Source: Acidobacteriota bacterium
GTDB taxonomy: Bacteria > Acidobacteriota > Vicinamibacteria > Vicinamibacterales > UBA2999
Reading direction: 5' to 3'
DNA length: 64,000 nt
NCBI GenBank assembly: GCA_030650395.1
Contig: JAUSDY010000028.1
Span: forward strand, 1 to 64,000
Below the pieces are notes generated by a model. It searched no databases. It was not told the origin of the DNA and worked only from the letters and a program-made list of their open reading frames with translations. This document shows positions 2,234-22,606 of the stretch, in pieces. A program made the position numbers and the translations under genes. The stretch's first letter is position 1; each line of letters begins with the position of its first letter.

Positions 2234-2342
2234 ACGCCTCCCCGGCGTGCACGTTTCGTACCTTCTGTGTCTTGAGCAAAACCGTTTGTTCGCAATCACA
2301 TACGGCTGTCAAAGCTAGAGATCGCCAAGCGAGGAGCACTCA

Positions 2343-2380: not shown

Positions 2381-2408
2381 TTTTGCTAACCGGACCTACT
2401 TTCAACCG

Positions 2409-2738
2409 CGACGTTCCAGGTGAGCGGGCCTGCTGGAATTGCTATCCTGCCCTCCGGCTACAGCGTTGAGGCCCGAGGGCAGCGCGACGACGCTGATGGC
2501 CGCGGGATTCACGGGCACCCGACTGCAAGCCGGGGGCTTCACGTCGGCCGAGATCGACCCGGCGTCGGCCGCCCCGGGCGGCGGTGGAAGCGGCGGTGGC
2601 GGAACCGGCGGTGGTGGTGGCGGGAGAGTTCACGCTGCGCCAGACCTCCCCGCATGGGCGATGGTGTTGCGGATGATGACCTTGGCGACGCTCGTCGTCA
2701 GGAGCGCGTCGCCGGTTGGCCGCGCGGCGTGCGCTTGA
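2409..2738 (+). pseudogene. Degraded second copy of a decapeptide-repeat / sorting-tail protein
   Basis: One frame reads SGYSVEA, matching the GYSVAD block of the intact gene at 1691-2233. After a frame change near 2470, another frame reads TTLMAAGFTGTRLQAGG, then a long Gly/Ser linker, then DLPAWAM and a short hydrophobic tail. The order (10-residue repeats, Gly linker, LPxW tail) is the same as in the intact gene, but the copy is on the opposite strand, frameshifted, and has a poor hydrophobic helix and no clear start. It runs head-on into the exosortase remnant. Confidence 0.55.
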
Positions 2739-3450: not shown

Positions 3451-4373
3451 TCCCGCCGCTCGTGCGAGCAGCCCGACCCGCGCGAGGGAACGTGCAGACC
3501 GGGTGCTTTCCGAATCAGCATCAGAGGTCCACGGGCCACCGTGACACCGACAATGACTTTTGGCCGTTAGGCAGATCCCGACTCTTTCCTCCTCTGCCTA
3601 GGTCAGGCACGGGAAGAAGCAGAACCTAGAAGGCTCTGGGATACCAGCAGGTCGTAGCCCGCACTGTTAGTGCATTCCTCCCATGGCCGTCCATGATTGG
3701 CTACGCTTAGGCTCGGCGTCATCTAGGACGCCCCTACGGAATCAGGACGACAACGCCGGTGAATAAGGCGTGGGCGCAGAACATCTCGCCCAGATGGGGT
3801 CGTCAAGCGTCCGCCAGGTCGTCTCGCGCCGATGCGGCATCGCCACCATCGACAGCCCCTTGCAGGGCCAGGCAGTGGGACCAAAGTCCCTAGTCGGGGC
3901 GGACAGTCGTCGTCCGTTCAGGGCGTGTGCCGGACCGCGAGACGACCTGAGTCCCGCCCATGCACACGCTCCAGTCCCCGCCGAACGATCGGCGGCGCGT
4001 TCCCCTCTTTGCGATGTTGAGACCCGCTGTTGGCCATGGTCCAAATCATGGATACCCAGGGAGGGCAGGATGCGGTCTAGCCGAGGTCTAGCCGCGTCCG
4101 ATTCCGATGGCGTGGGGCACGTTGGAAGCCTCAACGTGTCAAGTCGCGCGTCTCGCTCACATAGGGCGCCGCGCACATTGCGTGCGGCCCCTGCTTGCCG
4201 AATCACTTTGTATGGCGCTATCCGGTCGGCGCGTTGGCCGAGCAGCCACGGTCGGACTAGAATGACCGTGTTGCTCGTGCGGCTCGGGAGGCCCCCCGAA
4301 GCCGCTGCCGACCGTGAGGCGAGTTGGCAGGGAAGTCCGCTCACGCGGCCACCCACCAATCAGCCAACTGTCG
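3451..4373. other. About 0.9 kb without a recognisable gene
   Basis: Open frames exist on both strands (for example 3770-4510 forward and 3742-4359 reverse), but their translations are Arg/Ser/Pro-rich, without motifs, a credible start or internal repeats. I read this as decayed DNA between the truncated exosortase and the kinase gene. Confidence 0.5.
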
Positions 4374-4397
4374 TTGGTTGCGAGCCCCCGCAACCAA
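4374..4397. terminator. Hairpin before the kinase gene
   Basis: TTGGTTGCG and CGCAACCAA form a perfect 9-bp stem with a 6-nt loop, followed by a short T-containing run. It could be a terminator remnant or the 5' leader hairpin of the kinase transcript. Confidence 0.35.
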
Positions 4398-4554
4398 TAT
4401 TTCTCATTTCATCTAACATCTGTCTTGCCTGGACTGCTCCTCGAACCTCCCGAAGGTCGAGAAACCTTGCATGGAGGCCGATAGGTCGCTGCTACGCGTC
4501 TCAGGATTAATCCCGTCCGCGCTGGCGCTCGCCCGTATAATCCGCGGCAAGCGT

Positions 4555-7191
4555 TTGGCTCTCACCCCCGGCACTCGACTCGGCCCCTACGAAATCCAGT
4601 CCGCCCTCGGCGCGGGCGGGATGGGTGAGGTCTACAAGGCCCTCGACACGCGCCTGGACCGCACCGTCGCCATCAAGGTGCTTCCCGACACCCTGGCTTT
4701 CAACCCGCAGTTCCAGGCGCGCTTCGAGCGGGAAGCCCGTACGATCTCGCAGCTCGATCACACCCATATTTGCGCGCTCTATGACGTCGGTGAGCAAGAC
4801 GGCACGGCATATCTCGTCATTCAGTATCTGGCAGGCGAGACGCTGGCGGATCGGCTGAAGAAAGGGCCGCTCTCGCTCGACCAGGCGCTCAAGCATGCGA
4901 TTCAGATCGCCGACGCGCTGGACGCGGCGCACCGACACCCGGCCGGGATCACGCATCGCGATCTGAAGCCGGCCAATGTGATGCTGACGAAGAGTGGCGT
5001 GAAGTTGCTCGACTTCGGCCTCGCGAAGCTCCGCGGACCCGCGACGCCGTTGTCGATGACCGACATCACGCAGGCGGGAATGATCCTCGGCACGCTGCAC
5101 TACATGGCTCCCGAACAGGTGGAAGGGAGAGAAGCGGACGCGCGAAGCGACATCTTCGCGCTCGGGGCGACGCTCTATGAAATGGTCACGGGGACGCCGC
5201 CCTTCGACGGCGACGCGCCTGGGACCGTGATCGGCGCGATTCTGACACACGACCCTCCGCCGATGTCCACGCGGCAGCCGTTGAGCCCGCCGGCACTCGA
5301 TCATGCCGTGCAGCGTTGTCTCGTCAAGGATCCCGAGATGCGGTGGCACTCGGCACACGATCTGCGCGAACAGCTGGTATGGATTGCGAGCGATCTCAAG
5401 AACGCCGCGCGCCCGGTCACGAGCGGTCCCGCACGCCGGCGCGAGCGGGTCGCGTGGCTCGCCGTGGCCGCGACCCTGGCCGCGTTGATCATCCTCGGGA
5501 TCGTCGCGTTCGGACGGGATAGGCCCGAGCTGCCTCTTACCCGCCTCGACGTCCTCACGCCCCAGACTGCCGACCCGGTGTCCTTTGCCCTCTCGCCGGA
5601 CGGCCGGCAACTGGTGTTCGACGGGATGACCGACAGCGGACCGAAGCTCTGGTTGCGGCCGCTCGATCAGCCGATCGCGCAACCGCTCGCCGGGACCGAC
5701 GGCGCGATTTATCCGTTCTGGGCGCCCGACAGTCGCGCGATCGGGTTTTTCGCCGACGGCAAACTGAAACGGATCGATCTGGGCGGCGGCTTACCGCGCG
5801 TGCTCGCCGATGCGCCGTACGGGCGCGGCGGGGCGTGGAGCCGCGAGGGCGTCATCGTGTTCGCTCGATCGACGACCGGACCGCTCCTGCGCATCGCTGC
5901 GTCGGGTGGTCCGCTCATCCCGGTGACCCAACTTGACCAGACCCGTCACGCGAGTCATCGGTGGCCACAGTTTCTGCCGGATGGTGAGGGACTGCTCTTT
6001 CTCGCCACGAACGGCCCTGAAGCCCCGGGCATGTACTTGGGCTCGCTCCGTGGTGCTGTGCCGAAGCGCGTGCTGGAGACCGATAACGCCGCCGTTTATG
6101 CCGCGCCCGGGTACTTGCTTGTGTCCGAGGCGGGCGGCTTGCTGGCCCGCCGCATTGATCTCTCTCGCGCCGAGGTAGCAGACTCGGTGTCCGTGGCGCA
6201 TCCAGTCGGGCGGGATACGAGTGTGTTCCGGGGAGCCTTCGCCGTGTCGGCGACCGGCGTGCTGGCGTATCGCGCGACCGCCGCGGGTCGACGACGGCTG
6301 GTGTGGGTGGATCGAAGCGGCGCGCGGACGGGCACAATGGGTGACCCCGATGACAACGGGCTCCTGAATCCCACGTTGTCGCCACGCGGCGAGCGCGTGG
6401 CCGTCCAGCAGACGGACCAAGGCAACCAGGACATCTGGGTACTGGATCGCGTCGGTCTGCCTACACGGATCACGTTCGATCGGGCGGCCGACGGCTTTCC
6501 CGTCTGGTCGCCGGACGGTCATCGCCTGGTGTTCCGGTCCAATCGGCGGAGCTCGTTCGACCTGTACGAGACGCCGGCCAGTGGCGGAGGGACCGAGCAG
6601 CCTCTGTTGGAGTCGGCGCAGACGAAATTCCCGCTCGATTGGTCCGCGGATGGCCGGTTTCTACTCTATCGCGTGCTCAACCCGACGACGGGAAATGACC
6701 TGTGGTCGTTGCCGCTGATCGGGGAGGGCAAGCCCTCCGCCATTGTGCAGACACCGTTCGAGGAAAACAACGGGGAGCTTTCGCCAAACGGACGATGGGT
6801 CGCGTACGATTCGAATGAATCGGGGCGATTCGAAGTGTATGCGCAGTCGTTTCCCGGCCCCGGCCGCAAGTGGCAGATTTCCACCGCCGGCGGCATCGCG
6901 CCGCGCTGGCGCCGCGACGGCCGGGAGTTGTTCTACCTTGCGCCGGACGGCGCGTTGGTTGCGGTTCCGGTGCGGCCCTCAGCGGACGACCAGGGGCTCG
7001 ATCGGAGCACACCCGTGCGACTCTTTCGAGCGCCGATCGCCTACGGCGGATCGATTCAAGGCGGCAACGTCCGGCAACAGTACGCTGTGGCGGTTGATGG
7101 TAAGCATTTTCTGATCAATGTCACCACAGACGACGCGCTCGCGCCGCCAATCACCATCGTACAGAACTGGGTCGCCGGCCTGAAAAAATGA
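4555..7191 (+). CDS. Membrane Ser/Thr protein kinase with PD40/TolB-like propeller
   Basis: About 878 residues. Kinase domain: glycine loop GAGGMGEVY (19-27), catalytic HRDLKPAN (from H134), DFG (153-155) and APEQ activation-segment end. A single membrane helix lies near 298-318, followed by an extracytoplasmic region of repeated LSPDGRxxxF / WSPDGxxLVF (PD40) strands forming a TolB-like propeller. This architecture is expanded in Acidobacteriota; the propeller is thought to sense an external ligand. The frame is open back to an ATG at 4471, but family members usually begin just before LTPGTRLGPYEI, so I place the start at TTG 4555. It appears monocistronic. Confidence 0.93.
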   Translation: MALTPGTRLGPYEIQSALGAGGMGEVYKALDTRLDRTVAIKVLPDTLAFNPQFQARFEREARTISQLDHTHICALYDVGEQDGTAYLVIQYLAGETLADRLKKGPLSLDQALKHAIQIADALDAAHRHPAGITHRDLKPANVMLTKSGVKLLDFGLAKLRGPATPLSMTDITQAGMILGTLHYMAPEQVEGREADARSDIFALGATLYEMVTGTPPFDGDAPGTVIGAILTHDPPPMSTRQPLSPPALDHAVQRCLVKDPEMRWHSAHDLREQLVWIASDLKNAARPVTSGPARRRERVAWLAVAATLAALIILGIVAFGRDRPELPLTRLDVLTPQTADPVSFALSPDGRQLVFDGMTDSGPKLWLRPLDQPIAQPLAGTDGAIYPFWAPDSRAIGFFADGKLKRIDLGGGLPRVLADAPYGRGGAWSREGVIVFARSTTGPLLRIAASGGPLIPVTQLDQTRHASHRWPQFLPDGEGLLFLATNGPEAPGMYLGSLRGAVPKRVLETDNAAVYAAPGYLLVSEAGGLLARRIDLSRAEVADSVSVAHPVGRDTSVFRGAFAVSATGVLAYRATAAGRRRLVWVDRSGARTGTMGDPDDNGLLNPTLSPRGERVAVQQTDQGNQDIWVLDRVGLPTRITFDRAADGFPVWSPDGHRLVFRSNRRSSFDLYETPASGGGTEQPLLESAQTKFPLDWSADGRFLLYRVLNPTTGNDLWSLPLIGEGKPSAIVQTPFEENNGELSPNGRWVAYDSNESGRFEVYAQSFPGPGRKWQISTAGGIAPRWRRDGRELFYLAPDGALVAVPVRPSADDQGLDRSTPVRLFRAPIAYGGSIQGGNVRQQYAVAVDGKHFLINVTTDDALAPPITIVQNWVAGLKK

Positions 7192-7313
7192 AAGAGAACG
7201 TCAAACATCGCGCCGGACCTGGAGCCGGTCTACGACGACGAGGAACTGATCGCGGTGGGGTTGAATAGCGCGCGCTCTGTTCCGTTTCACGGCGGCCCGG
7301 TTGAACGACTGCT

Positions 7314-7811
7314 TCAGCCGAATGGATTCTCTGTGTTTCTGTGTTTCCGTGTTTCTGTGAAACGCATTCCGATCAAGGAACACAGGTAGAGACCGACCGC
7401 GACGAACAGCAAGTAGCGAAAGCCGAGCAGCATCGAGCTGTATTCGGCCAGCCCGCCAAACATCGCGCCGGCGATGTTGGCGCCGAAGGCGCGGTCCGCC
7501 TCCGCAACCCGAGAGAACGACACCGCGAAGATCACACTGGCAAAGAGAATGGGCACGAAGGCCAGAATCGAGGCCCCGGCGATCTGCGCCGTGCGCTCCA
7601 TGCCCAGGAAGTATTCCATGGGGACGAGCGCGCTTACCGTCAGCGACACCAGGAGCCCCGCATAGTAAGGGCCGAGCCGCGCCGGCTTCGCCACGAACAC
7701 GAACAGGTTGGCGGCGAGAATCATCACCAGCACGGCGAAGATCACGACTGAGTTGACGATCCACGCTAGAATGGCTTTGTTATTCCATCCGTCTCCACAA
7801 TGTCTCCACAA
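7314..7811 (-). pseudogene. C-terminal remnant of a membrane spermidine-synthase-like protein
   Basis: Four or five hydrophobic helices ending in GANIAGAMFGGLAEYSSML, GFRYLLF and a last helix. This pattern is the C-terminal membrane module of large fused transporter/spermidine-synthase-like proteins seen in Acidobacteriota. The methyltransferase-like core and the N-terminal helices are absent, and the first about 15 residues look unrelated. It borders the left end of the AbiE island, so truncation by a past integration or deletion is plausible. Confidence 0.55.
7327..7361. repeat. Short-word tandem repeat (CTGTGTTT)
   Basis: Four imperfect head-to-tail copies of an 8-bp word (ctgtgttt / ccgtgttt). 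They overlap the last codons of the spermidine-synthase-like remnant. Similar word repeats occur elsewhere in the window with other words. Confidence 0.6.
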
Positions 7812-7946
7812 CTCAGGTTGAATCCGGATGAATCGCGATTACAGTAGTGGAGAAGGATGCGGCGGGGAACTGCTGACGACTCAGGCACTTAGACCCAGAA
7901 CTCGTGCGCCATCAGCCAGTTACGCAAATCGTTGACTAAGGTTTCA

Positions 7947-7966
7947 ACTCCCGCCGCCTCCACCAT
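7947..7966 (+). repeat. att-like site: tmRNA 3'-end copy, left
   Basis: ACTCCCGCCGCCTCCACCAT is identical to 11518-11537. The sequence up to CCA matches the T-loop/acceptor end of bacterial tmRNA (TTCAACTCCCGCC...CCACCA). The preceding bases cannot form the 5' side of a T-stem, so this is only the 3' part left by site-specific recombination, not an ssrA gene. Confidence 0.7.
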
Positions 7967-8117
7967 ATCTAAGCTGTTGTAAATAAATAACTTAGTAAAC
8001 AGCACACTCAGCGGCGCAATCGAGACGGCCGCATCGTGCCGGCCGTCTTCCTGCGTATCCGGCTGCATCGCAGGGTACGAGACTGCGCGGCGAGCTTTAG
8101 CCTTTGTCCCGGATTGG

Positions 8118-8169: not shown

Positions 8170-8787
8170 ATGAATCGTCGCCAGTGGGACACGACACTCT
8201 ACAAGCTCGCCGAGCCACAGGCGGGCTACTTCACGGCTGCACAGGCCCTGGAAGCGGGGGTGCTGCAGGTGCGTCTGGCCCAGCTCCATCAACGCGGCGA
8301 CATTGAACGAGTCACACGCGGCGTGTATCGGCTCGCTCGATACCCGATCTCCCCGCTTGGGCAATACATCGAGGCCGCCCTGTGGCCGCAGGTGCGTCGA
8401 CCAGACGCGCACGGCGTGATCTCCCACGAATCGGCGCTCGCGATCTATGGCCTGTCTGACGCAAGCCCGGCCAAAGTCCACCTGACGCTGCCCACGGGGC
8501 TTCGCATCCGCCGCGCCGCGCCGAAGCATCTAGTCCTCCACTATGCGGATCTGAACCCGAGCGACGAGCAGCGCGTCGAAGGCGTTCCGGTCACCACGCC
8601 AGCGCGCGCTATTCGCGACGCCCACGCCAGCCACCTCGGGCCGGCACTCATTCGACAGGCGATTGCAGATGGCCGCCGGACCGGCCACCTCACGCTTGAC
8701 GAAGCCGGCACGCTTGAACGGGAACTGCTTGGGACCAAGCCCCGTCGCCGCGGCGGTCCCGCACGATCACGCGGGACCGCGGCGTGA
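8170..8787 (+). CDS. abiEi: AbiEi-type antitoxin and autorepressor (type IV toxin-antitoxin)
   Basis: 205 residues. The N-terminal winged helix (about 1-65, including YFTAAQALEAG and VTRGVYRLA) is the DNA-binding part. The middle carries SHESALAIYGLSD and LPTGLRIRR, typical of AbiEi-family antitoxins. In type IV systems the antitoxin does not bind the toxin but opposes its effect and represses the operon. The ATG at 8170 has GACTGAGAG upstream and lies 11 bp after the operator. The stop overlaps the start of the toxin gene. The basic C-terminal tail is probably disordered. Confidence 0.88.
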   Translation: MNRRQWDTTLYKLAEPQAGYFTAAQALEAGVLQVRLAQLHQRGDIERVTRGVYRLARYPISPLGQYIEAALWPQVRRPDAHGVISHESALAIYGLSDASPAKVHLTLPTGLRIRRAAPKHLVLHYADLNPSDEQRVEGVPVTTPARAIRDAHASHLGPALIRQAIADGRRTGHLTLDEAGTLERELLGTKPRRRGGPARSRGTAA

Positions 8788-9638
8788 TGGCTTCTCGGAG
8801 GCATCCGACCGGTCCTCCGCCATCGGCGGGTGTACTCGCCAAATACGTACAAGCCTACGCGCGCGAAGCTGGTCTCAGCGAAGGCCGCGTGCGCGGGTGG
8901 ATCTCATACATGGTCATGGCCGGCGCGCTCGAACGCGCCGCCGCAAGCGGGCAACCGCGGTTCACGGTGAAGGGAGGGATCGCCCTCGAACTTCGCCTAC
9001 GCAATCGCGCTCGCGCCACGAAAGATATCGACGTGGTGTTGCAGCACGCGGACGCCGATCTGGCGCGAACGCTCGAAGGCGCTTTGGGCGGTGAGGCGTA
9101 TCAAGGATTCACGTTTCGCCGTAAGGGTGAACCGCTCCTGCTGGACAACGGGGCCGTGAATCTGGAGCTCGCCGTCAGTTACTTAGGCGGCGCATGGACC
9201 ACCATCGCCGTTGATATCGCGCGCGCCGAACCGGGCGAGGCGGAGATCGAATGGTTGCCGGCCATTCCGCTCACAGACGCGTTCGGCATCACCGGGCCTG
9301 TCGATCTTCCGTGCCTGCCACTGCGCCTCCATATCGCGCAGAAGCTGCACGGCATGACCCTGCCGCCACGAGCAGGCAAGCGCAATGAACGGTTTCGCGA
9401 CCTCATTGACCTGCTGCTGATGGAAGAACTGGTGACGGACTACAGGGGACTTCGTGAGGCCTGCGAGGCGGTCTTTGCAAGCCGCGGCACGCACGTTTGG
9501 CCGCCGCCACTCGCGGTGCCGTCCTATTGGATCGAACCATTCGCTCGGCTGGCAGGGGACCTCGACCTACCGGTTGCTGATGCGGAAACTGGGATGACGC
9601 GTGTGCGGGCGTTCGTCGAGCGGATCGTCAACGCTTAG
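8784..9638 (+). CDS. abiEii: AbiEii/AbiGii-family nucleotidyltransferase toxin
   Basis: 284 residues. VKGGIALELRL and TKDIDVVL are the nucleotidyltransferase core (GG loop and Asp-x-Asp metal ligands), HIAQKLHGM supplies the conserved Lys helix, and RFRDLIDLLL the later conserved Asp. AbiEii-type toxins transfer nucleotides, for example to tRNA 3' ends in characterised members; the target here is unknown. Start is either GTG 8784 or ATG 8787; the latter overlaps the abiEi stop by one base (TGATG), implying coupled translation. It probably serves in phage defence or island maintenance. Confidence 0.9.
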   Translation: MMASRRHPTGPPPSAGVLAKYVQAYAREAGLSEGRVRGWISYMVMAGALERAAASGQPRFTVKGGIALELRLRNRARATKDIDVVLQHADADLARTLEGALGGEAYQGFTFRRKGEPLLLDNGAVNLELAVSYLGGAWTTIAVDIARAEPGEAEIEWLPAIPLTDAFGITGPVDLPCLPLRLHIAQKLHGMTLPPRAGKRNERFRDLIDLLLMEELVTDYRGLREACEAVFASRGTHVWPPPLAVPSYWIEPFARLAGDLDLPVADAETGMTRVRAFVERIVNA

Positions 9639-11537: not shown

Positions 11538-11826
11538 CCTTCGCTTGCCTTTCAGGCGAGCTTCGTCTGGGTAAACCACTGATCTTCTGCCAAGCGAAGT
11601 CTGTCTCGCCGAGTCATCGCCGCCTCGGGAGTGGTCCGTTACTCACTTCGAGCAACGCGCCGTTCTTCCTGGAATGTGCATCGCGGCAACGTGGCGTCCG
11701 GAGAGTACAATTCGCTATCTCACTTGTGACCGCCCGACAATCGGACACCACGCCGATGCACGCCCCTTGCTCGAACCGCCAGGCCTCGCCCGGCGCGCCA
11801 GGCGCATCTCCGATGAGACGTACCAG

Positions 11827-13248
11827 ATGAGCCTCAGTCGCAGCGACCCGCGCATTCTCGTGGTAGTCGCGGCCGGCGAGTTCCGCGATGAGCTGGCCAC
11901 GCTGCTGGCCGATCTGGGACCGGTGTTCATCCCCTCCGAGCAGCCTGGTCTGCTCGACTTCCTGACGGAGACGCCGACCCTCCAAGTGGTGGTCATCGTC
12001 GAGTGCGGTGGAGAAACGATGGCGCTCGATCTGCTCAATGCCGCCAAGCGCCGCCGTGCGCAACTCGCGGTGTTCGTCCTGAGCGACAAGCCGACGATCG
12101 ACCACGCCACCGAGGCGATCCGCCGCGGGGCCGAGGATTTCGTACCCATTCCGCTGTCCGGGGATCTGCTGCGCAAGGAGATCGACCGCGCGCTCGAGAC
12201 CGCGGACCTGCGCGACAACATCGCGCACCTGCGCAGCCTCGTCTCGACGGCCTACGGCTTCGACCAGATCGTGAGCAACTCGCCGCGCATGCGGCCGGTG
12301 TTCGAGCGCGCGCTCGCTGCCTCGCGCAGCGACACGCCCGTGCTCATCATCGGCGAGACGGGAACAGGCAAGGAACTCCTGGCGCGAGCCATTCACGCCA
12401 ACAGCCGCCGGCGCGATCGGCCGTTCGTCCCCGTCAACTGCGCGGCGCTGCCGCGCGACCTGATCGAGAGTGAGTTGTTCGGCCACCGCCGTGGCGCCTT
12501 CTCAGGCGCGCACGCCGATCATCAGGGACTGTTTGTGACGGCACATCGCGGCACGATGCTGCTCGACGAAGTCGGCGAACTGCCGGCCGAGGCCCAGGCA
12601 AAATTTCTGCGCGTGCTGCAGGACGGCGAGGTCCGGCCGGTCGGAGGCCTCGACAGCCGGAGGATCGATGTCCGCGTGATCGCCGCCACGAACCGGAGCC
12701 TCGCCGACCTCCGAGCCGGCTCGCTGCGCCAGGACCTGTTCTTCCGCCTCTCCGTGCTCGTCATCGAGGTGCCGCCGCTGCGGGAACGCGTCGACGACAT
12801 TCTGCGGCTCGTCCATCACTTTCTGGCGCGCTACAGCGACCGCGACGCTCCGCGCCTGAGCGGCCTCACGCCCGACGCGCTCGACGTGCTGACACGGTAT
12901 TCGTACCCCGGCAATGTCCGCGAACTCGAAAACCTCGTGCACAGCCTTTGCACCACGCTGCCACCGGACCGCACCGAGATCCAGGCAGCAGATGTGCTGG
13001 GCTGCCTGCAACGTCAGGGCGCAAGTCCGCCGCCTGCCGCACCCGAGCCGCCCAAGGACCTCACGCTGAACCTGCGGGGGCTGGAAACCTGGGCGCTCAA
13101 GCTGGCCTTGGAGCGGACCGGGGGTAACAAGAGCCGGGCGGCGCAACTCTTGGGGATTTCCAGAGACAGCCTGTATCGAAAGCTGCATGAACTCGAACTG
13201 TCCGATATTACGACAGGTAACATAACTAGCCATAAAATAAAGAGTTAG
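11827..13248 (+). CDS. Sigma-54-dependent activator (NtrC family) with degenerate receiver
   Basis: 473 residues: receiver-like domain (about 1-125), AAA+ domain with Walker A GETGTGKE, sigma-54 contact loop GAFSGA (a Ser variant of GAFTGA) and DEVGELP Walker B, then a Fis-type HTH (GGNKSRAAQLLGISRDSLYRK) near the C-terminus. The receiver lacks the phosphorylatable Asp: the beta-3 end reads VVVIVECGG, with Glu near that place, so control may not be by phosphorylation. The frame is open upstream to 11674, but alignment of the receiver favours ATG 11827. It precedes a -24/-12 promoter and the electron-transfer operon, its likely target. Confidence 0.88.
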   Translation: MSLSRSDPRILVVVAAGEFRDELATLLADLGPVFIPSEQPGLLDFLTETPTLQVVVIVECGGETMALDLLNAAKRRRAQLAVFVLSDKPTIDHATEAIRRGAEDFVPIPLSGDLLRKEIDRALETADLRDNIAHLRSLVSTAYGFDQIVSNSPRMRPVFERALAASRSDTPVLIIGETGTGKELLARAIHANSRRRDRPFVPVNCAALPRDLIESELFGHRRGAFSGAHADHQGLFVTAHRGTMLLDEVGELPAEAQAKFLRVLQDGEVRPVGGLDSRRIDVRVIAATNRSLADLRAGSLRQDLFFRLSVLVIEVPPLRERVDDILRLVHHFLARYSDRDAPRLSGLTPDALDVLTRYSYPGNVRELENLVHSLCTTLPPDRTEIQAADVLGCLQRQGASPPPAAPEPPKDLTLNLRGLETWALKLALERTGGNKSRAAQLLGISRDSLYRKLHELELSDITTGNITSHKIKS

Positions 13249-13273
13249 CTTGTATGTGTCAGATATTATGACA
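13199..13273. promoter_or_regulatory. Two matching 17-bp sites: candidate activator binding sites
   Basis: TGTCCGATATTACGACA (13199-13215) and TGTCAGATATTATGACA (13257-13273) match at 15 of 17 positions and have TGTC/GACA palindromic ends. They lie about 120-180 bp upstream of the -12 box at 13388, the usual distance for enhancer sites of NtrC-type activators. The first lies inside the end of the activator gene itself. Confidence 0.65.
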
Positions 13274-13374
13274 GACAGAGTCTGGATTGGAGCGTGAGCC
13301 GAGGCGGGCCACGGCACGGCGTAACCCCTTGTCAATAAAGCTTGTATCGACGCACTTAGTCTGTTCCTCTCAAG

Positions 13375-13390
13375 TGGCGGCTGGCGTGCA
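13375..13390 (+). promoter_or_regulatory. Sigma-54 (-24/-12) promoter of the electron-transfer operon
   Basis: TGGCGGCTGGCGTGCA fits the TGGCACG-N4-TTGCA pattern with exact GG-N10-GC spacing (GG 13376-13377, GC 13388-13389). Transcription would start near 13401, before the GGGAGG ribosome site and ATG at 13441, which rules out the earlier in-frame ATG at 13399. Confidence 0.7.
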
Positions 13391-13440
13391 TTGATTCAGT
13401 GGGGCTCGTTGAAATGCCCCTCTGTATTCGGGAGGTACGC

Positions 13441-14862
13441 ATGGCCGCACTACATCAGCCGCTTCTCAGGCTCGGTCTTCTCGGACTCGTCGTTGGCACG
13501 CTCGTCGCCCTGCTGGTTCCCGCCACTTCGGCCGAGGCTATTCCCGCCTGGTCGAGGAAGTACCAGACGAGTTGCTCGACGTGCCACGCGGCCTTTCCAA
13601 AGCTGAACTACTTCGGCAAGGCGTTCCGCAACAACGGCTACCGGTTTCCAGGTGGTGAGGACGAGTCGGCCACAAAGGACCCGCCCGTCATCCTGGGTGC
13701 CGAAGGCTACAAGAAGCTCTTTCCCCGGGCGCTGTGGCCCTCGCACATTCCGGGCGGCGTGCCGCTTGCCGTTCGCGGAATCTCGCGATTCAGCACGTAC
13801 GAAGACGCGCGGACGACGACCTTCGAGTTTCCCCACGAGTTCGAGGTGCTCACGGGAGGGACGCTGGGAGAAACTTTCTCGTTCTTCGGCGAGATTGAGA
13901 TCGAGAACGAGGGCAACGAGAACGAACTGGGAATGGACCTCGTGCTGCAGTACGACCCGCGTCCCTGGCTGCACGTCCGCATGGGGTCGGTCAGTGTCCA
14001 TCCCTTCAACGACGGTCTTCGTCTGACCGCGGCGCACTACACCCCGTACGACACGCGGACGACACCCGGCTCGGTGACGCTGCGGGTGCCGAACCCGAAT
14101 GGGTCGACGCCGACCTTGTCCATCAGTTCCACCACCGCGGAAGACCGCTGGAGATTTCGCGAAGGACAGCCCGGCATCGAGGTGTGGGGGGGCCGAAACG
14201 GGCCGAAGGACAAGGGTGGGGTGACCTGGGGGGTCGGCATCGCCAACGGACAGGGCCTGATCGACGCCAACGATCGCAAGGACGTCTTTGCGCGGGTGGC
14301 CTACAAGTTCGGCGGCTACGGTGAGCTCGGCGGCGGCGAACTGTCTCAAGACCTCGAGTTCTGGCGGGACGACTCGTTGAAGGTGGGCGTCTTCACCTAC
14401 GTGGGCAAGTCCACGAACGTCTACGAAGGGAGGACGGTGGCGCTCAGCGGAACTCCGGGCGCGGGCATCGTCACCGTCTCGGCCGACAGCCAGATCGAGA
14501 ACGAGTTCAACATCGTCGGCATGGAGTTCGACTGGTGGTTCCGGGATCTCAACCTGTTCGGACTCGTCTTGCGCCAGCATGATGAGAATCCGCGCGGCAC
14601 GGGCGAGACGATCGACACGGACAGCTGGTTCGTGGAAGCCGATTACACCGTCTATCCCTGGCTCATCGGGATCCTCCAGTACGGCGCAAGTGCCCAGGAT
14701 TTCAGCGTGCGACCCGATCCCCAGACGCAGAAGTTTCTGGTTCCCGCCGTGGTCTTCATGGCGCGCGCCAATGTCAAGTTCACGCTCGAGGGCCAAGTCA
14801 GGCTCGACGATCCGGGCAAGGGGCACAACCGCTTCCTGGTCGGGATCGACTTCGGCTTCTAG
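13441..14862 (+). CDS. Cyc2-like outer-membrane porin-cytochrome fusion
   Basis: 473 residues. Sec signal peptide ending near AEA33. Immediately after it comes IPAWSRKYQTSCSTCHAAFP with one heme motif, CSTCH (45-49), then PKLNYFGKAFRNNGYR. The remaining about 400 residues alternate aromatic and polar residues as in beta-barrels and end in Phe (GIDFGF), the outer-membrane insertion signal. A single c-heme at the start of a barrel is the plan of Cyc2, the Fe(II)-oxidising fused cytochrome-porin, whose heme segment (Arg-x4-CxxCH...P, then FG..F...GY) is similar. The match is by pattern only; other porin-cytochromes are possible. Start chosen by the GGGAGG ribosome site and the sigma-54 promoter. 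Confidence 0.7.
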   Translation: MAALHQPLLRLGLLGLVVGTLVALLVPATSAEAIPAWSRKYQTSCSTCHAAFPKLNYFGKAFRNNGYRFPGGEDESATKDPPVILGAEGYKKLFPRALWPSHIPGGVPLAVRGISRFSTYEDARTTTFEFPHEFEVLTGGTLGETFSFFGEIEIENEGNENELGMDLVLQYDPRPWLHVRMGSVSVHPFNDGLRLTAAHYTPYDTRTTPGSVTLRVPNPNGSTPTLSISSTTAEDRWRFREGQPGIEVWGGRNGPKDKGGVTWGVGIANGQGLIDANDRKDVFARVAYKFGGYGELGGGELSQDLEFWRDDSLKVGVFTYVGKSTNVYEGRTVALSGTPGAGIVTVSADSQIENEFNIVGMEFDWWFRDLNLFGLVLRQHDENPRGTGETIDTDSWFVEADYTVYPWLIGILQYGASAQDFSVRPDPQTQKFLVPAVVFMARANVKFTLEGQVRLDDPGKGHNRFLVGIDFGF

Positions 14863-14871
14863 GAGGATGCG

Positions 14872-15465
14872 ATGCGAACGAACTGGCTGACTGGTGTGGC
14901 GCTGGCCGCGGCGACGCCGCTCTTGTTGACAGCGATGGCGCTCCAGACGGCTGGCGTGTCTGGCTCGGTCACGGCGAAAGGGCTTCGGACGAATGCCGGC
15001 ATCGTCGTCAGCCTGCAGGCGCCGGGGACGAACGTGACGCCGCCGGCCAAGCCGCCCGAGGTGGATCAGAAGGGTATGGTCTTCATACCGCACGTCATGG
15101 CCGTCGTGAGGGGCACGGCCGTGCGGTTTCTCAACAGCGATGCCGTGGCGCACAACGTATTCTCGCCGGAAGGCAAGTACAACCTGGGCACCTGGCCGCA
15201 GGGGGAAACCCGCGAGCACATGTTCGATAAGCCGGGGGTCTATACCCAGCTCTGTCGCGTGCACCCGGAGATGGAGTCCTTCGTCGTCGTCCTCGAGACG
15301 CCGTACTTCGCGGTCAGCGACCGGGAGGGTAAGTACGCGATCGCGGCTGTGCCGCCGGGGAAGTACACGCTCGTCGCCTGGAGCGAGAGACTCAAGAGCG
15401 TCAAGCAGGAGGTGGTGATCGAGTCCGGCAAGACCCTGACCGTCGATCTCGCCATGGCCCGATGA
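14872..15465 (+). CDS. Exported cupredoxin (plastocyanin-like) with C-terminal CarbopepD-like domain
   Basis: 197 residues. N-terminal signal peptide, then a cupredoxin fold. Copper ligands are visible: His in VAHNVFSP and the C-x2-H-x2-M cluster CRVHPEM, consistent with a type 1 copper site. The last about 60 residues (YFAVSDREGKYAIAAVPPGKYTLVAW) match the carboxypeptidase-regulatory-like beta-sandwich that often follows such cupredoxins. It starts 10 bp after the porin-cytochrome with GAGGATGCG upstream. A periplasmic electron carrier between the outer-membrane cytochrome and the inner-membrane complex is the natural reading, comparable in role to rusticyanin (inference). Confidence 0.85.
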   Translation: MRTNWLTGVALAAATPLLLTAMALQTAGVSGSVTAKGLRTNAGIVVSLQAPGTNVTPPAKPPEVDQKGMVFIPHVMAVVRGTAVRFLNSDAVAHNVFSPEGKYNLGTWPQGETREHMFDKPGVYTQLCRVHPEMESFVVVLETPYFAVSDREGKYAIAAVPPGKYTLVAWSERLKSVKQEVVIESGKTLTVDLAMAR

Positions 15466-15480: not shown

Positions 15481-17379
15481 GTGGACGCCCAGTACCACGC
15501 GAGCCTTCCGACACCACGTTACTTCCTGGATCTGATCAGCTGCCGTTCCGGGTGTCCCGTGCGCACCAACGCCGGCGCGTACGTCCGGGCGGTCGCGGAA
15601 GGCGACTACGAGAACGGGTACCGCATTGCACGGGCCCCCAACCCGTGGGCGTCGGTCTGTGCGCACGTCTGCGCGCATCCCTGCGAGACGCGTTGCCGGC
15701 GTGGCACCATCGATCAGCCCATCTCGATCCGTGCACTGAAGCGGACGCTCACTGAACGTTTCGGCCCTGAGTCGGTCGCGGCCTCAATCGACGAGCCGGC
15801 GCCCCTCGGCGCCGCGGCGCGCGTCGGCGACCAACCGGCCCGCGTGGCCGTCGTCGGGGCCGGTCCGGCGGGGCTGGCCTGCGCCCACGATCTCGCCTTC
15901 CTCGGGTACCGCGTGACGGTCTTCGAGGCAGCGCCGGTGGTGGGCGGCATGCTGGCACAGGGCATTCCCGAGTACCGCCTGCCGCGCGACATCATTCGCG
16001 CCGAGATCGAACGCACCGTTCGCATGGGCGTCGACGTCAAGACGAATTGGCGCCTCGGTCGCGACTTCACAGTCGCCGATCTGATGCGTAACGGCCACGC
16101 CGCCGTGTTCCTGGCCTTCGGCGCGACGCGCGGCCGTGACCTGCAAGTACCCGGCGCGGAGCTCGACGGCGTGATCAACGGTGTCGACTTCCTCCTCAAC
16201 GCGAACCTCGGCTACCAGGTCTCCCTCGGCTCGCACGTCATCGTCGTGGGCGGCGGGAACGTGGCGATCGACGTCGCCCGCACCGTCCTGCGCTACGGCG
16301 CGCGCGAGGAGCAGGGGCTCATGCCGCCGGGTGCCGAGGCGCTGCTCGAATCGTGGGGCTACGACAACACCTTGATCGACGCTGCGCGCACCGCGCTTCG
16401 GCTGGGCGCTCGCCGCGTGACGGTCGTCTCGCTGGAGCGCCGGGACGAAATGCCGGCCTCGCCGGAAGAGATCGCGCAGGCCGAAGAAGAAGGCATCCGG
16501 TTCGTCGGTGGTCGCGGCCCGAAGCAGTTCATCGGCCGTGATGGAAAAGTCACCGCCCTGAAGACCGTGGCGGTGGCCTCGGTGTTCGACGCGCAGGGCC
16601 GCTTCAACCCGACGTTCGTGCCCGGCAGCGAAAGCCAAATCGAGGGGGACACGATCGTTCTCGCCATCGGGCAGAAGCCGGACGTGGCGGCGCTCGCCGG
16701 CGACCCGAACATCGCTATCACCGCGCGTGGCCTGGTTGAGGTTGACCCGCACACGCTGGCGACCACCGCCCCGGGCGTCTATTGCGGAGGCGACCTGGCG
16801 TTCGGCCCGCGCGTCATCATCGACGCCGCGGGCGACGGCAAGCGTGCCGCGCTCGCCATCCACCGGCACCTGGGCGGCGCCGCCCTCGACCACGCTCCCA
16901 TGCGCTTCCGCCGCCTGTCGCTCAGCCGCTGGGCGGAAGACTACGATCGCATCCCGCGCCACGACGTGCCGTGCCTGCCCGTACAGCGACGGGTCGGCTT
17001 CCGCGAAGTCGAAATGGACTATGCCGAGGCCGACGCCCGGGCCGAAGGCCGTCGCTGCCTGTGGTGCAACGTCAGCCCGATCTTCGACTCGGAGAAATGC
17101 ATCCTCTGCGGCGGCTGCGTCGACATCTGTCCCGAGAACTGCCTGAAGCTCGTGCGCGCCGATCGGCTGACCGGCGTTGCCCAGCTCGAGGCGCTGCGCG
17201 AACGGCTCGGCGCCTCGCCGGACGCCGGGGTCATTTTGAAGGACGAAGATCGCTGCATCCGGTGCGGCCTGTGCGCCGACCGGTGCCCCACCGGCGCCAT
17301 CACCATGGAGCTGCTCGAGGTGGACAACAGCCCGGTCGCCTCGCTGCAGCTCTTCGCCGAGGAGATGGAGGGCGCATGA
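15481..17379 (+). CDS. GltD-like FAD/NAD(P) oxidoreductase with C-terminal 2[4Fe-4S] ferredoxin
   Basis: 632 residues from GTG 15481. The N-terminal Cys-rich domain (CRSGCP..., CAHVCAHPCETRCRRG) is the FeS domain of GltD/NfnB-type flavoproteins. VVGAGPAGLACAHDL is the FAD Rossmann motif and VVGGGNVAIDVARTV the pyridine-nucleotide motif. The C-terminus has two ferredoxin clusters (CILCGGCVDICP and CIRCGLCADRCP) plus an extra CLWC. Such proteins move electrons between NAD(P)H and FeS or quinone partners. It is encoded inside a Rieske/cytochrome b operon and overlaps the Rieske gene by four bases, suggesting a subunit or docking partner of that complex. No membrane helix is seen. Confidence 0.9.
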   Translation: MDAQYHASLPTPRYFLDLISCRSGCPVRTNAGAYVRAVAEGDYENGYRIARAPNPWASVCAHVCAHPCETRCRRGTIDQPISIRALKRTLTERFGPESVAASIDEPAPLGAAARVGDQPARVAVVGAGPAGLACAHDLAFLGYRVTVFEAAPVVGGMLAQGIPEYRLPRDIIRAEIERTVRMGVDVKTNWRLGRDFTVADLMRNGHAAVFLAFGATRGRDLQVPGAELDGVINGVDFLLNANLGYQVSLGSHVIVVGGGNVAIDVARTVLRYGAREEQGLMPPGAEALLESWGYDNTLIDAARTALRLGARRVTVVSLERRDEMPASPEEIAQAEEEGIRFVGGRGPKQFIGRDGKVTALKTVAVASVFDAQGRFNPTFVPGSESQIEGDTIVLAIGQKPDVAALAGDPNIAITARGLVEVDPHTLATTAPGVYCGGDLAFGPRVIIDAAGDGKRAALAIHRHLGGAALDHAPMRFRRLSLSRWAEDYDRIPRHDVPCLPVQRRVGFREVEMDYAEADARAEGRRCLWCNVSPIFDSEKCILCGGCVDICPENCLKLVRADRLTGVAQLEALRERLGASPDAGVILKDEDRCIRCGLCADRCPTGAITMELLEVDNSPVASLQLFAEEMEGA

Positions 17380-17861
17380 AGACCCCGAAGCCGCCTGAGG
17401 CAGGCGCAAGCAAGGAGTCGACGCGACGGCGATTCCTCCTCACGACCGGCACGACGACCGTCGTCGCGGGCGTGGTCGGCTTCCTGGGCGCGACCGCCCG
17501 GTTTCTGTTTCCCAACGTGCTCTACGAGCCGCCGAGCCGTTTTCCCGTGGGCGGGCCCGATGATTTTCCGACGGGCTCGCCGACCTTCCTGCCGAATCAG
17601 CGGCTCTTCGTCTTCAACAGCGATGCTGGCTTCTACTCCATATCGTCGATTTGCACGCACCTGGGCTGCAACGTCAATCACGTGGCGAGCGGCGGCTTCG
17701 CCTGCCCGTGCCACGGCAGCCAGTTCGATGCGAACGGCCAGGTGATCCATGGTCCGGCGCCGCGGCCGCTGGCGTGGTTCGGTCTGAGCTTGTCGTCCCG
17801 TGGCGAGCTGGTCGTCGACCAGCGGCGTATCGTGGAACCCGACTATCGGTTCAAGGTGTGA
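17376..17861 (+). CDS. Rieske [2Fe-2S] protein
   Basis: 161 residues. A Tat-like RRRFLL motif and one N-terminal membrane helix anchor it. The cluster ligands are canonical: CTHLGC and CPCHGS, followed by the Pro loop GPAPRPL. The ATG overlaps the flavoprotein stop (ATGA), so translation is coupled. With the cytochrome b gene that begins one base after its stop it forms the core of a quinol:cytochrome c (bc-type) complex in the cytoplasmic membrane. Confidence 0.95.
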
Positions 17862-17862
17862 A

Positions 17863-19119
<1,257 letters not shown>

Positions 19120-19131: not shown

Positions 19132-21126
19132 ATGCGAGCTCCGCAAACCGCTCCGCCCTGGATGCACCTGGCGTTCGCGGCGCTCAGCGTCGCGTTCCTC
19201 GCGATCTTTTCCTGGGTGCTCCTGCAGGAATCGTTCGCCGAATGGCGCACCCGGCAGGCCGAGTTCCTCGCAATCGAGCGCCAGGTGAAGGACCCACACG
19301 CGCTCGCGCTGGCCGCGCACGTCGGCGGGATCCGGCAGATCTGGCTGCGTGACATCGATCTCGTCGATCGCTGCACGACGTGCCACCTGGGGACCGACGA
19401 CCCGGACTTTCAGGTGGCGAAGCAGCCGTTTGCCACGCACAGCGGGACGTGGCTGACGACGCATCCGCCGGATCGGTTCGGCTGCACGATCTGCCACGGC
19501 GGTCAGGGCGAAGCCACGAACTACCGCGACGCGGCGCACCAGCCGGTCGCGTACTGGCCCGAGCCGGTGCGACCCCGCGAGCTGATCGAAGCCAACTGCG
19601 GCGTGTGCCACCGCGAACGCGCGCCGGCCGAAGCCTTTCTGCTCGCCGAGGGACGGCAGCGGATTGCCGCCGCCGGCTGCGTCGCCTGTCACGATTTGCC
19701 CGGCTTCTCGCCGGACGAGATCCAGGCGCCGCACCTGTCGAGCGTGGGCTACAAGGTCCGCCCGGACTGGGTGCGGAGCTGGCTCGCCGATCCGAAGACG
19801 TATCTTCCGCGAGCCCGGATGCCGAACTTCCGCCTGCAGAAGCAGGAGATCGAAGACCTGAATGCGTTCCTGCTCTCACAACGCGAGACCGCGCCCCTCG
19901 ACTCGTCCGGCGTCGACTGGTCGAAGGCCGACTCCGAACACGGACGCATCCTGTTCGGCGAGGCGCGGTGCCTGTCGTGCCACATGGTCGACGACCGCGG
20001 CGGATTGCTCGGCCCGGATCTATCGAGGGTGGGCAGCAAGGTTCGCCGTGACTGGCTGTTTAGTTTCATCAAAGATCCGATGCACGACCAACCAGACACG
20101 CGCATGCTGCGCTACCGGTTCTCGGACGTCGAGATCCGCGACGTGGTCGCGTACCTGACGACGGACCTCGTCGACCCGGAAGCGCCGGAGAATGCGCCGG
20201 CCGCCGGGTACCTCGACCCGAAGCAGGTCGCCGCCGGCCGCGACACGTTCGTCAAGCACGGGTGTTTCAGTTGTCACCGATTCAACGGCCTGACGCCGAC
20301 GGCGAAGATCGGACCCAGCTTGATGGCGGTCGGCAATCGGGTCGTCGAACGGCCCGAGTTCGGATCCATGAACGTCGTGCCGACACTGGCGAACTGGCTC
20401 TACCTCAAGCTGCGCCAGCCGGACTCGCTTGCCGAAGAGTCGCGCATGCCGACCTTCAACTTCACCGAACCGGAAGTCGCCTCGGTGGTGGTCGCGCTCC
20501 TGAGCGTGCGCAAAGCTGACTTCCCGGCCTCGCGGGTGACGCGCGCGCCGAGCTCGACACCCTACACGCCGCAGGGCGCGTTCGGCGCGCTCGTGTCGCG
20601 CTACCGCTGTCTGTCGTGCCATCAGGTGGGGGGATCGGGAGGAACGCTCTCGACCGTGCCGCTCGATCGCATCGGCAGCCAGCTCCAGCGGAGCTACCTC
20701 GTCTCGTACTTGCAGAACCCGTCGGCGGTGCGCGTGAGCATCGAAGAGCGCATGCCGTTCTTCCACATGACGCCGCAGGAGGCGGCGACGATCGCCGACT
20801 ACGTTGGCGCGGTCCTCGTGGACGACTCACTCGAGCGCCCGTTCACGGCGGACACCGAGGCCGCGCGGCGGGGCGAGCAGCTCTACCGCCGTCTCGGCTG
20901 CCATGGCTGCCACATCATCGGCGCGAGCGGCGGCTACGTCGGACCCGACCTGAGCGACACGGGCCATCGGCTCGAGGCGGGGTGGATTGAGCGCTGGCTC
21001 GCCGCGCCGCAGACGTGGAAGCCCGCGACGCTCCAACCCGACTACGGGCTGAAGGCCGAGGACCTGCGCGATCTGACGGCGTACCTGATGACGCTGACGA
21101 CGTCCGCGCGTGGGAGAAACCCGTGA
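19132..21126 (+). CDS. Membrane-anchored octaheme c-type cytochrome
   Basis: 664 residues with a membrane helix near 12-30 and eight CxxCH motifs: CTTCH, CTICH, CGVCH, CVACH, CLSCH, CFSCH, CLSCH and CHGCH. Several are followed by GPDLSRVG-like and MP-type blocks of mono-heme cytochrome c domains, so the protein is a string of c-type domains, not a hydroxylamine-oxidoreductase-type octaheme fold. Its position after cytochrome b suggests that it replaces cytochrome c1 and carries electrons along the outer face of the membrane. Confidence 0.9.
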   Translation: MRAPQTAPPWMHLAFAALSVAFLAIFSWVLLQESFAEWRTRQAEFLAIERQVKDPHALALAAHVGGIRQIWLRDIDLVDRCTTCHLGTDDPDFQVAKQPFATHSGTWLTTHPPDRFGCTICHGGQGEATNYRDAAHQPVAYWPEPVRPRELIEANCGVCHRERAPAEAFLLAEGRQRIAAAGCVACHDLPGFSPDEIQAPHLSSVGYKVRPDWVRSWLADPKTYLPRARMPNFRLQKQEIEDLNAFLLSQRETAPLDSSGVDWSKADSEHGRILFGEARCLSCHMVDDRGGLLGPDLSRVGSKVRRDWLFSFIKDPMHDQPDTRMLRYRFSDVEIRDVVAYLTTDLVDPEAPENAPAAGYLDPKQVAAGRDTFVKHGCFSCHRFNGLTPTAKIGPSLMAVGNRVVERPEFGSMNVVPTLANWLYLKLRQPDSLAEESRMPTFNFTEPEVASVVVALLSVRKADFPASRVTRAPSSTPYTPQGAFGALVSRYRCLSCHQVGGSGGTLSTVPLDRIGSQLQRSYLVSYLQNPSAVRVSIEERMPFFHMTPQEAATIADYVGAVLVDDSLERPFTADTEAARRGEQLYRRLGCHGCHIIGASGGYVGPDLSDTGHRLEAGWIERWLAAPQTWKPATLQPDYGLKAEDLRDLTAYLMTLTTSARGRNP

Positions 21127-21581
21127 CACAACGTCGCCACGTGATCGGGATGTGGGTCGGTCTCGTCGTGGCTGTGGCCAGCGGTTGCGGGCGGCCGGGC
21201 GAAGGGCCTCCCGCGGATCCCCTGATGGACGTCTTCCGGCACCAGGCACAGGAGGAGGGCCTCACGCGCATACAGACCGACGGCAAGCGTCTCTTCGCGC
21301 ACTACTGCGTGACGTGCCACGGCGAGGCCGGGACGGGCGACGGGCAGAACGCCTACAATCTGGAGCCGAAGCCGCCCGACTTCCAACAGTCGCTGCCGCT
21401 CCACGCTGTGCCCTACCGCCGGCAGATCATCGAAAGTGGCACAGCGGCGGTCGGACGCTCGGCGCTCTGCCCGCCCTGGGTCCGCAACTTGTCGGCGACA
21501 CAGATCGACACGTTGCTCGCGTATCTGGACGCGCTCGCGAAACCACCGGCGGTGCCGGGGCCGGGCGGAAGCAAGCAGTAA
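21123..21581 (+). CDS. Lipoprotein mono-heme cytochrome c
   Basis: 152 residues from GTG 21123, overlapping the octaheme stop by four bases. The N-terminal hydrophobic run ends in VASGCG, a lipobox with Cys about 22, followed by a Pro-rich tether. One heme site, CVTCHGEAGTGDG, begins a class I cytochrome c domain (LEPKPPDF, ALCPPWVRNLS, then a C-terminal helix IDTLLAYLDAL). It closes the operon and could be the soluble-side acceptor or donor between the octaheme protein and the cupredoxin or a terminal oxidase. Confidence 0.88.
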   Translation: MTQRRHVIGMWVGLVVAVASGCGRPGEGPPADPLMDVFRHQAQEEGLTRIQTDGKRLFAHYCVTCHGEAGTGDGQNAYNLEPKPPDFQQSLPLHAVPYRRQIIESGTAAVGRSALCPPWVRNLSATQIDTLLAYLDALAKPPAVPGPGGSKQ

Positions 21582-21655: not shown

Positions 21656-21689
21656 TGCCAGTTGGCATGTTGTATAATGCCTTTTGGCA
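21656..21689 (+). promoter_or_regulatory. RES-Xre promoter with two tandem operators
   Basis: TGCCAGTTGGCA (21656-21667) and TGCCTTTTGGCA (21678-21689) are two TGCC-N4-GGCA palindromes spaced 22 bp centre to centre, two helical turns, so a repressor would bind the same DNA face. A perfect TATAAT (21673-21678) lies between them. AGGAG follows at 21689-21693, before ATG 21699. Confidence 0.75.
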
Positions 21690-21698
21690 GGAGTTGCT

Positions 21699-22136
21699 AT
21701 GACAGCAGCCGAATACGTCATCGACGTTCTGGGCGGACCGAAAGTGTTCAAGGGTCGGACGCTACCGAATGCGACGGAGCTCCGGGATCGAGTCAGAACG
21801 GGACTCCCGTACCAATCGCTGGAGTCCATCCGCGGACGCCTCAATTTGTCGCTGCCGGAAGCGGCCATCGTGCTCCATGTGCCGCTCCGAACCCTCGCGC
21901 GACGCCGGCACGGCCGGAAGCTTGACGCCGACGAGTCCGATCGCCTCTACCGCCTGGCACGCATCGCGGGGCAAGCTGTGGCGGTCTTAGGCACGGAGGA
22001 GAAAGCGGCGACATGGCTCAGACGGGCCAATCGAGCGCTGAATGGTGAAGTTCCGCTCGGGTTGCTGGACACCGACCTGGGCGCCCGCCAGATCGAAGAC
22101 GTCCTGGGAAGGATTGAACACGGAGTTGTGAGCTAG
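21699..22136 (+). CDS. Xre/MbcA/ParS-type antitoxin of a RES-Xre module
   Basis: 145 residues. The N-terminal helical part reads as an Xre-like HTH (ESIRGRLNLSLPEAAIVLHVPLRTLARRR), and the C-terminal half (ATWLRRANRALNGEVPLGLLDTDLGARQIEDVLGRIEHG) is the DUF2384 toxin-binding domain with the conserved W-x2-PN-like and P-L-LL patterns. These antitoxins block RES toxins and repress their operon. ATG 21699 is chosen for its AGGAG site. The stop overlaps the GTG of the toxin. Confidence 0.9.
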   Translation: MTAAEYVIDVLGGPKVFKGRTLPNATELRDRVRTGLPYQSLESIRGRLNLSLPEAAIVLHVPLRTLARRRHGRKLDADESDRLYRLARIAGQAVAVLGTEEKAATWLRRANRALNGEVPLGLLDTDLGARQIEDVLGRIEHGVVS

Positions 22137-22606
22137 TGCGCGTGTGGCGCATTGCCACTGCGGCGCACGCAGCGTTCGACGGTGAAGGGGCGCGGCGGTA
22201 CGGCAGCCGTTGGACGCCAAGAGGCGTTGCCGCCGTGTACGCCTCGGCAACGCTGTCACTCGCCGCACTCGAGCGCTTCGTTCACACCGACCCCGACTTG
22301 GAACCCGCCGACCTCGTGGCGATGCTCGTTGATGTGACCGACGGCTTCCCTATTCATTCACTCGAGATCGGACAGCTTCCAGCAGACTGGCGCCATTACC
22401 CTGCTCCGGATGCACTGGGCCGCCTCGGCGGAGAGTGGTTAGCGGGAGCACGCACGGCGATTCTGGCGGTTCCATCCGTGGTGATTCCGCATGAATGGAA
22501 CTACGTGCTCAATCCGAAGCACGCGGACTTTCGTCGACTGGCCATCGGCCAGCCGGAGCCGTTTAGCTTCGATCCACGAATGCGGGCGAAGCGAAGGCCG
22601 CGATGA
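22136..22606 (+). CDS. RES-domain NAD+-degrading toxin
   Basis: 156 residues from GTG 22136. RES signature: WR at 4-5, GSRWTPRG (R25), VYAS (Y35) and LAALE (E46); these Arg, Tyr and Glu residues line the NAD+ site in characterised RES toxins, which phosphorolyse or hydrolyse NAD+. The later segment has the conserved N-x-LNP (NYVLNPKH) and FDPR. One-base overlap with the antitoxin stop indicates coupled expression. Confidence 0.9.
   Translation: MRVWRIATAAHAAFDGEGARRYGSRWTPRGVAAVYASATLSLAALERFVHTDPDLEPADLVAMLVDVTDGFPIHSLEIGQLPADWRHYPAPDALGRLGGEWLAGARTAILAVPSVVIPHEWNYVLNPKHADFRRLAIGQPEPFSFDPRMRAKRRPR

Follow-up and report, generated by a model that had tools for sequence, protein, structure and literature searches.

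A Cyc2-like heme-porin encoded with a copper protein and a Rieske/cytochrome b complex in an Acidobacteriota genome

Cyc2 serves widely as a marker gene for iron oxidation. The published features of its product include a signal peptide, one CXXCH motif, the sequence AXPXFAR[Q/K][T/Y] upstream of that motif and PXL downstream of it, and the protein has been modelled as a 16-stranded barrel with OprP and OprO as templates (PMC8406198). In Acidithiobacillus, Cyc2 hands electrons to a copper protein (PMC10654088). The least certain part of this marker is cluster 3 of FeGenie/McAllister, a loosely defined group to which the Leptospirillum Cyt572 and homologues from Geobacter belong. FeGenie names Geobacter and Rhodoferax as sources of cluster 3, grades it 'probable iron oxidation and possible iron reduction' and points out that known iron reducers have it. 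Cluster 3 predominates at sites where Ignavibacteriales and Zixibacteria have iron-oxidation genes (PMC8478452), and Cyt572 has been reported as derived from a cluster of Acidobacteria and Nitrospira homologues (PMC10654088).

The locus described here lies in a stretch of 64,000 nucleotides (the window) from an Acidobacteriota bacterium, the genome of which is in the same family as groundwater MAGs deposited as Acidobacteria. As in the window, the Acidithiobacillus rus operon (cyc2-cyc1-cup-cox-rus) combines an outer-membrane Cyc2 with copper proteins and cytochromes c; however, the rus operon encodes an aa3 oxidase, whereas in the window the copper gene is followed by genes for a Rieske/cytochrome b/NAD(P) complex. 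The Geobacter ext selenite/tellurite operon (extHIJKLMNOPQS) likewise includes a porin gene together with genes for a Rieske protein, a cytochrome b (ExtP/ExtQ) and multiheme cytochromes, and loss of extI reduces selenite and tellurite reduction (PMC5877670). Unlike the cyc2-like protein, the Geobacter ExtI porin has no heme motif, and neither a copper protein nor a GltD-like gene is listed for the ext cluster, in contrast to the window operon. No description of the window operon was found in the titles, abstracts and passages available from the open-access literature.

The cyc2-like gene and its product

The cyc2-like gene (13441..14862, + strand, within an open reading frame spanning 13399-14862) was annotated as a monoheme cytochrome-porin fusion on the basis of its sequence, its homologues, an AlphaFold2 model and a profile match. 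It is present as a single copy in its genome, and its start codon is most likely the ATG at 13441, which has GGGAGGT in front of it. The product is 473 amino acids long, compared with the length criterion of at least 365 amino acids applied for Cyc2. A single hydrophobic segment (residues 8-26, by hydropathy) is followed by AIPAWSRKYQTSCSTCHAAFPKLNYFGKAFRNNGYR and then by about 400 residues ending in a final Phe, and the predicted signal peptide is likely cut between AEA and IP, at residue 33. The c-type heme motif CSTCH (C45-S-T-C-H49, residues 45-49; 13573..13587, +), of which both cysteines and the histidine are invariant in 74 homologues, is preceded by AIPAWSRKY, with R39 lying six residues N-terminal to C45. 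After the motif, the sequence reads CHAAFPKL, with PKLN at residues 53-56, FG at 58-59 and GYR at 66-68. The original prediction had listed a signal peptide, one CSTCH, an Arg six residues before it, PKLN, FG..F...GYR and some 400 residues running to a Phe, and all of these can be read in the 473-residue protein. Residues P35, R39, C45, C48, H49, P53, L55, G59 and G66 are invariant across the 74 homologues; given these nine invariant residues and the existence of orthologues at 73-77% identity, the features are not attributable to chance.

Single N-terminal CXXCH and downstream PXL elements are both present, with P53 and L55 invariant. Against AXPXFAR[Q/K][T/Y], the window sequence AIPAWSRKY agrees at five of the seven specified positions, with W in place of F and S in place of A; the exact motif occurs in 83 of the 133 collected sequences, mostly relatives of the window protein. 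The claim that the window protein departs from the Cyc2 heme signature is thus correct in part: AIPAWSRKY does differ, but it is less deviant than claimed, being only two positions off a published consensus that allows [Q/K][T/Y] (PMC8406198), and most of its relatives match that consensus exactly.

An AlphaFold2 model computed with 74 homologues (mean pLDDT 85.4, pTM 0.83) contains 16 long strands within residues 109-472, as read off the element list with two short loop strands excluded, and the barrel was assigned to residues 109-473 (13765..14859, +). The top folds by VIA-align were OprP (Z 26.6, rmsd 2.8 over 303 residues) and OprO (Z 26.5), with the next group at Z 23-24; Foldseek alone placed general porins on top, and VIA-align, used as a second look, placed OprP and OprO there. 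An AlphaFold model of one FARQTG Cyc2 reference also has 16 strands, with a pLDDT of 55 that is too weak for comparison. When the family profile was aligned to FARQTG Cyc2 with hhalign, a match with 99.7% probability (E 5.7e-27) was obtained over 359 columns, in which the barrel part is aligned loosely. Pfam and PHROGs yielded no family for the protein and NCBIfam no model above cut-off; a PDB search with the single sequence gave no match below E 0.01, and a PDB search with the family profile gave unrelated chains only, at E 0.21. Judged by the predicted architecture and by homology to Cyc2, the protein is a Cyc2-type heme-porin, and the fused cytochrome-porin originally proposed is borne out by a model that has a barrel, of 16 strands and closest to OprP/OprO, and by profile homology to Cyc2 over those 359 columns.

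The features common to this protein and FARQTG Cyc2 are a signal peptide, a single CXXCH near the mature N-terminus, AXPX(F/W)xR(Q/K) before it and PXL after it, FG..F...GY, full-length profile homology and a 16-stranded OprP-like barrel. The cyc2-like protein nevertheless has RKY where FARQTG Cyc2 has RQTG, it lacks the NNNP..DVWN and C-terminal NNTLY sequences that are conserved in FARQTG Cyc2, and its gene neighbours are unlike those of FARQTG Cyc2.

For phylogenetic comparison, FARQTG references were selected by motif, not by biochemical proof, from Bacteroidota (loci L196-L198 and L200), from Caballeronia and Methylocystis plasmids (L201 and L203) and from Nitrospirota (L206-L210 and L228). 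The tblastn search of plasmids returned heme-domain matches only, three of which were taken as Cyc2 references; the Paraburkholderia sequence (L202) fails the motif filter and was left out of the tree. In the 75-sequence tree, which is without a verified Cyt572 or Mariprofundus sequence, eleven FARQTG references are united in one clade (SH-aLRT 99) that excludes the window protein, which instead groups with sequences from Acidobacteriota, Gemmatimonadota, Glassbacteria, Calditrichota and Bacteroidota. A constraint placing the window group inside the FARQTG Cyc2 clade was rejected (p-AU 0.0001). The distinct clade suspected in the original prediction is therefore upheld, and the protein was not placed within an unrelated periplasmic cytochrome family. 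The window protein belongs to a large FARKY clade that extends over many phyla and is apart from FARQTG Cyc2. Within Acidobacteriota, 112 of 396 genomes match the cyc2-like family at E<=1e-3. The FARKY clade probably corresponds to FeGenie cluster 3, which is its likely filing because the taxa reported for cluster 3 partly overlap those of the family, Ignavibacteriales and Zixibacteria being common to both.

The operon, its control region and its conservation

The operon is compact, with the cyc2-like gene as its first structural gene, and the order at the locus is sigma-54 activator, cyc2-like protein, type-1 copper protein, NAD(P)-FAD-4Fe4S protein, Rieske protein, cytochrome b, octaheme cytochrome c and monoheme cytochrome c. 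The sigma-54 interacting activator (11674..13248, +; AAA+ with a Fis-type HTH; Pfam Sigma54_activat 4.7e-62, HTH_8), the true start of which may be internal, is a probable regulator of the operon. A repeat search detected two candidate activator sites, the palindromes TGTCCGATATTACGACA(G) at 13199..13216 and TGTCAGATATTATGACA(G) at 13257..13274. These copies, of 18 nt each, are 89% identical and spaced by 58 bp, one where the activator gene ends and one just past it, and a comparable palindrome is found about 210-220 bp upstream of cyc2 in two other loci (L055 and L053). The weak -24/-12-like site TGGCGGCTGGCGTGCA (13375..13390, +), detected by pattern match, is not significant alone, because the window has 6 such matches against 4.5 expected by chance. 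A strict TTGGCAC-N5-TTGC lies upstream of the cyc2-like gene in loci L149, L180 and L048, and the operon is probably under sigma-54 control.

Directly downstream of the cyc2-like gene is that for a plastocyanin-like type-1 copper protein carrying a CarboxypepD_reg domain at its C-terminus (14872..15465, +; Pfam Copper-bind 1.2e-6, CarboxypepD_reg 2.2e-10); its copper ligands H94, C128, H131 and M134 are each retained in 102-107 of 107 homologues. A GltD-like NAD(P)/FAD oxidoreductase follows (15481..17379, +; Pyr_redox_2, Fer4_20, Fer4; PRK12771-like), with N- and C-terminal 4Fe-4S domains and no TM segment, and is cytoplasmic. The Rieske 2Fe-2S protein (17376..17861, +; Pfam Rieske 1.7e-13) has cluster ligands conserved in 52 homologues. 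The cytochrome b (17800..19119, +; Cytochrom_B 3e-42) combines b6 and subunit IV in one polypeptide, and its true start is probably downstream of 17861. The last two genes encode a membrane-anchored octaheme c-type cytochrome with eight CXXCH motifs (19132..21126, +; Pfam and sequence) and a monoheme c-type cytochrome (21123..21581, +; Cytochrome_CBB3 1e-7; GTG start at 21123 in an ORF from 21015), which is likely a lipoprotein. The Rieske ATGA overlaps the GltD-like stop and the monoheme GTGA overlaps the octaheme stop, and these overlapping gene ends suggest a single transcript.

Among the NCBIfam models, the cytochrome b best matches ExtP (2.4e-80) and ExtQ (1.1e-21), and the octaheme protein also matches ExtS. 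None of the Ext models reaches its curated cut-off against the window operon, with bit scores of 269 against 290 for ExtP, 77 against 150 for ExtQ and 81 against 100 for ExtS.

The operon region is flanked by an AbiEi/AbiEii pair (window 8170-9638) and an Xre-MbcA-ParS/RES pair (21684-22606). Both pairs are of toxin-antitoxin types, which may point to a mobile or accessory segment.

Neighbourhoods were counted in the best 80 named loci of the contig scan, considering genes on the same strand and within 3.5 kb for the copper gene or within 8.5 kb downstream for all six genes; as the loci were chosen by similarity to the window, the rates hold for its relatives and not for the whole clade. Among these best 80, 70 loci could be scored for the copper gene, and in 62 of them it directly follows the cyc2-like gene. 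The complete set of six downstream genes occurs in 25 of the 41 loci whose sequence extends 8.5 kb downstream, and 11 of 32 scorable loci have an activator homologue upstream of the cyc2-like gene. The 25 full operons come from at least eight phyla: Acidobacteriota (including the isolate Geothrix oryzisoli, L172), Gemmatimonadota, Glassbacteria, Calditrichota, Ignavibacteriota, Bacteroidota, Fidelibacterota and Nitrospirota. The operon was found in none of 34 control loci with FARQTG Cyc2 or other heme-porin families, several of which are on short contigs; in one control (L253) Rieske and cytochrome b genes are close by, and a copper-protein match occurs in a few. In L055, two further copper-protein homologues flank the operon (5569-6129 and 16592-17167).

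In some relatives without the bc-type genes, the cyc2-like/copper pair is accompanied by other partners. In L112, Pfam matches show the pair followed by a pentaheme cytochrome c, a molybdopterin protein, an Fe-S protein and NrfD, with QrcB as the best NCBIfam match (319 bits against a cut-off of 440); the gene layout is the same in L111 and L118. A molybdopterin protein with Fe-S domains is found in L174. In L126 (4292-9684), the pair precedes a bd-type oxidase-like subunit, cytochromes c and an EB_dh-domain cytochrome. The L126 set recalls the bd-like TO complexes of the Mn-oxidising Manganitrophaceae. Finally, L115, L127 and L130 have no such complex beside the pair, which in these loci precedes sensor-like or uncharacterised genes.

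Function and direction of electron flow

On balance, it seems probable that the cyc2-like protein is a Cyc2-type outer-membrane electron conduit tied to the quinone pool, with electrons moving inward and Fe(II) as the leading donor. The single c-type heme, in a short N-terminal domain, would be located at the periplasmic mouth of the OprP-like barrel, where a small reduced donor, with Fe(II) as the leading candidate, could give an electron to the heme within the pore. Electrons may then pass from the heme to the copper protein and the cytochromes c and on to quinone, and perhaps to NAD(P)+, with the conduit presumably joined to the quinone pool by the dedicated Rieske/cytochrome b complex and its NAD(P)-FAD-4Fe4S partner; alternatively, the inward path could end at oxidases encoded elsewhere. 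Electron uptake is favoured because of the Qrc-like and oxidase-like partners in other loci and the parallel with Cyc2 and its copper protein in Acidithiobacillus. A role as putative iron oxidase is a reasonable guess, and a heme-porin match by itself should not be read as iron oxidation. The more far-reaching proposal of a self-contained route from the outer membrane to quinone and NAD(P), in which the FARKY heme-porin takes electrons from a dissolved metal, the copper protein and the octaheme cytochrome relay them, and the Rieske/cytochrome b complex with its own NAD(P)-flavoprotein drives some of them uphill to NAD(P)H, is unlikely; if true, metal oxidation of this kind would be a common form of respiration that has gone unrecognised in at least eight phyla, made up mostly of uncultured bacteria.

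The same proteins might instead carry electrons outward, from quinol or NAD(P)H through the bc-type complex, the cytochromes c and the copper protein to the heme-porin and on to extracellular Fe(III), Mn(IV), humics or selenite, which we consider possible but rather doubtful. The full operon is present in Geothrix oryzisoli, and the genus Geothrix is described as electrogenic (PMC12285243). The cytochrome b is closest to the Geobacter Ext set, in which loss of extI lowers selenite and tellurite reduction (PMC5877670), and the octaheme cytochrome matches ExtS, but ExtI is without a heme. The FeGenie grading of cluster 3 allows for iron reduction, and iron reducers carry cluster 3. The genome itself holds a second GltD-like/Rieske/cytochrome b set with a pentaheme cytochrome c (contig C143, L269 ~1010-7982, -), followed by a Sec-type nitrous-oxide reductase (TIGR04246, 901 bits); this paralogous set beside NosZ means that such a bc complex can serve outward electron flow, suggesting that a complex of this kind may also feed N2O reduction. 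Together with the Geothrix operon, it counts against an inward-only direction. The separate clade formed by FARQTG Cyc2 and the lack of support for a Calvin cycle also weigh against the inward reading with Fe(II) as donor. Against outward flow, other family members are combined with complexes that resemble Qrc (menaquinone reductase) or a bd-type oxidase, and the high potentials usual for type-1 copper centres are awkward for low-potential acceptors. It is very improbable that the protein is a heme-plugged selective pore or a sensor, whose target could be copper, an oxyanion or a metal complex, and that the redox operon supports its regulation or loading and not bulk respiration; the OprP/OprO-like barrel, the single heme and the sensor-like or uncharacterised genes after the pair in L115, L127 and L130 are compatible with such a role, but the co-occurrence with three different redox complexes and the conserved copper ligands argue for electron transfer. 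With either direction, the conserved operon of FARKY heme-porin, copper protein and quinone complex offers a concrete, testable pathway, and its occurrence in a cultured Geothrix opens direction and substrate to genetics and transcription studies.

The genome also encodes an aa3 oxidase with adjoining NrfD-type genes, and O2 respiration is therefore probably independent of the cyc2-linked complex. A Calvin-cycle RuBisCO was considered and rejected: the sole RuBisCO-like match is a fragment at a contig end (L268:10163-10726, contig C44) that is closest to OiaX, a 3-oxo-isoapionate-4-phosphate decarboxylase, and a Calvin cycle is thus unsupported. Elsewhere in the window, at 36023-39906 (-), there is a DUF1552 and PSD/DUF1592-type gene pair, the larger protein of which has two CXXCH motifs.
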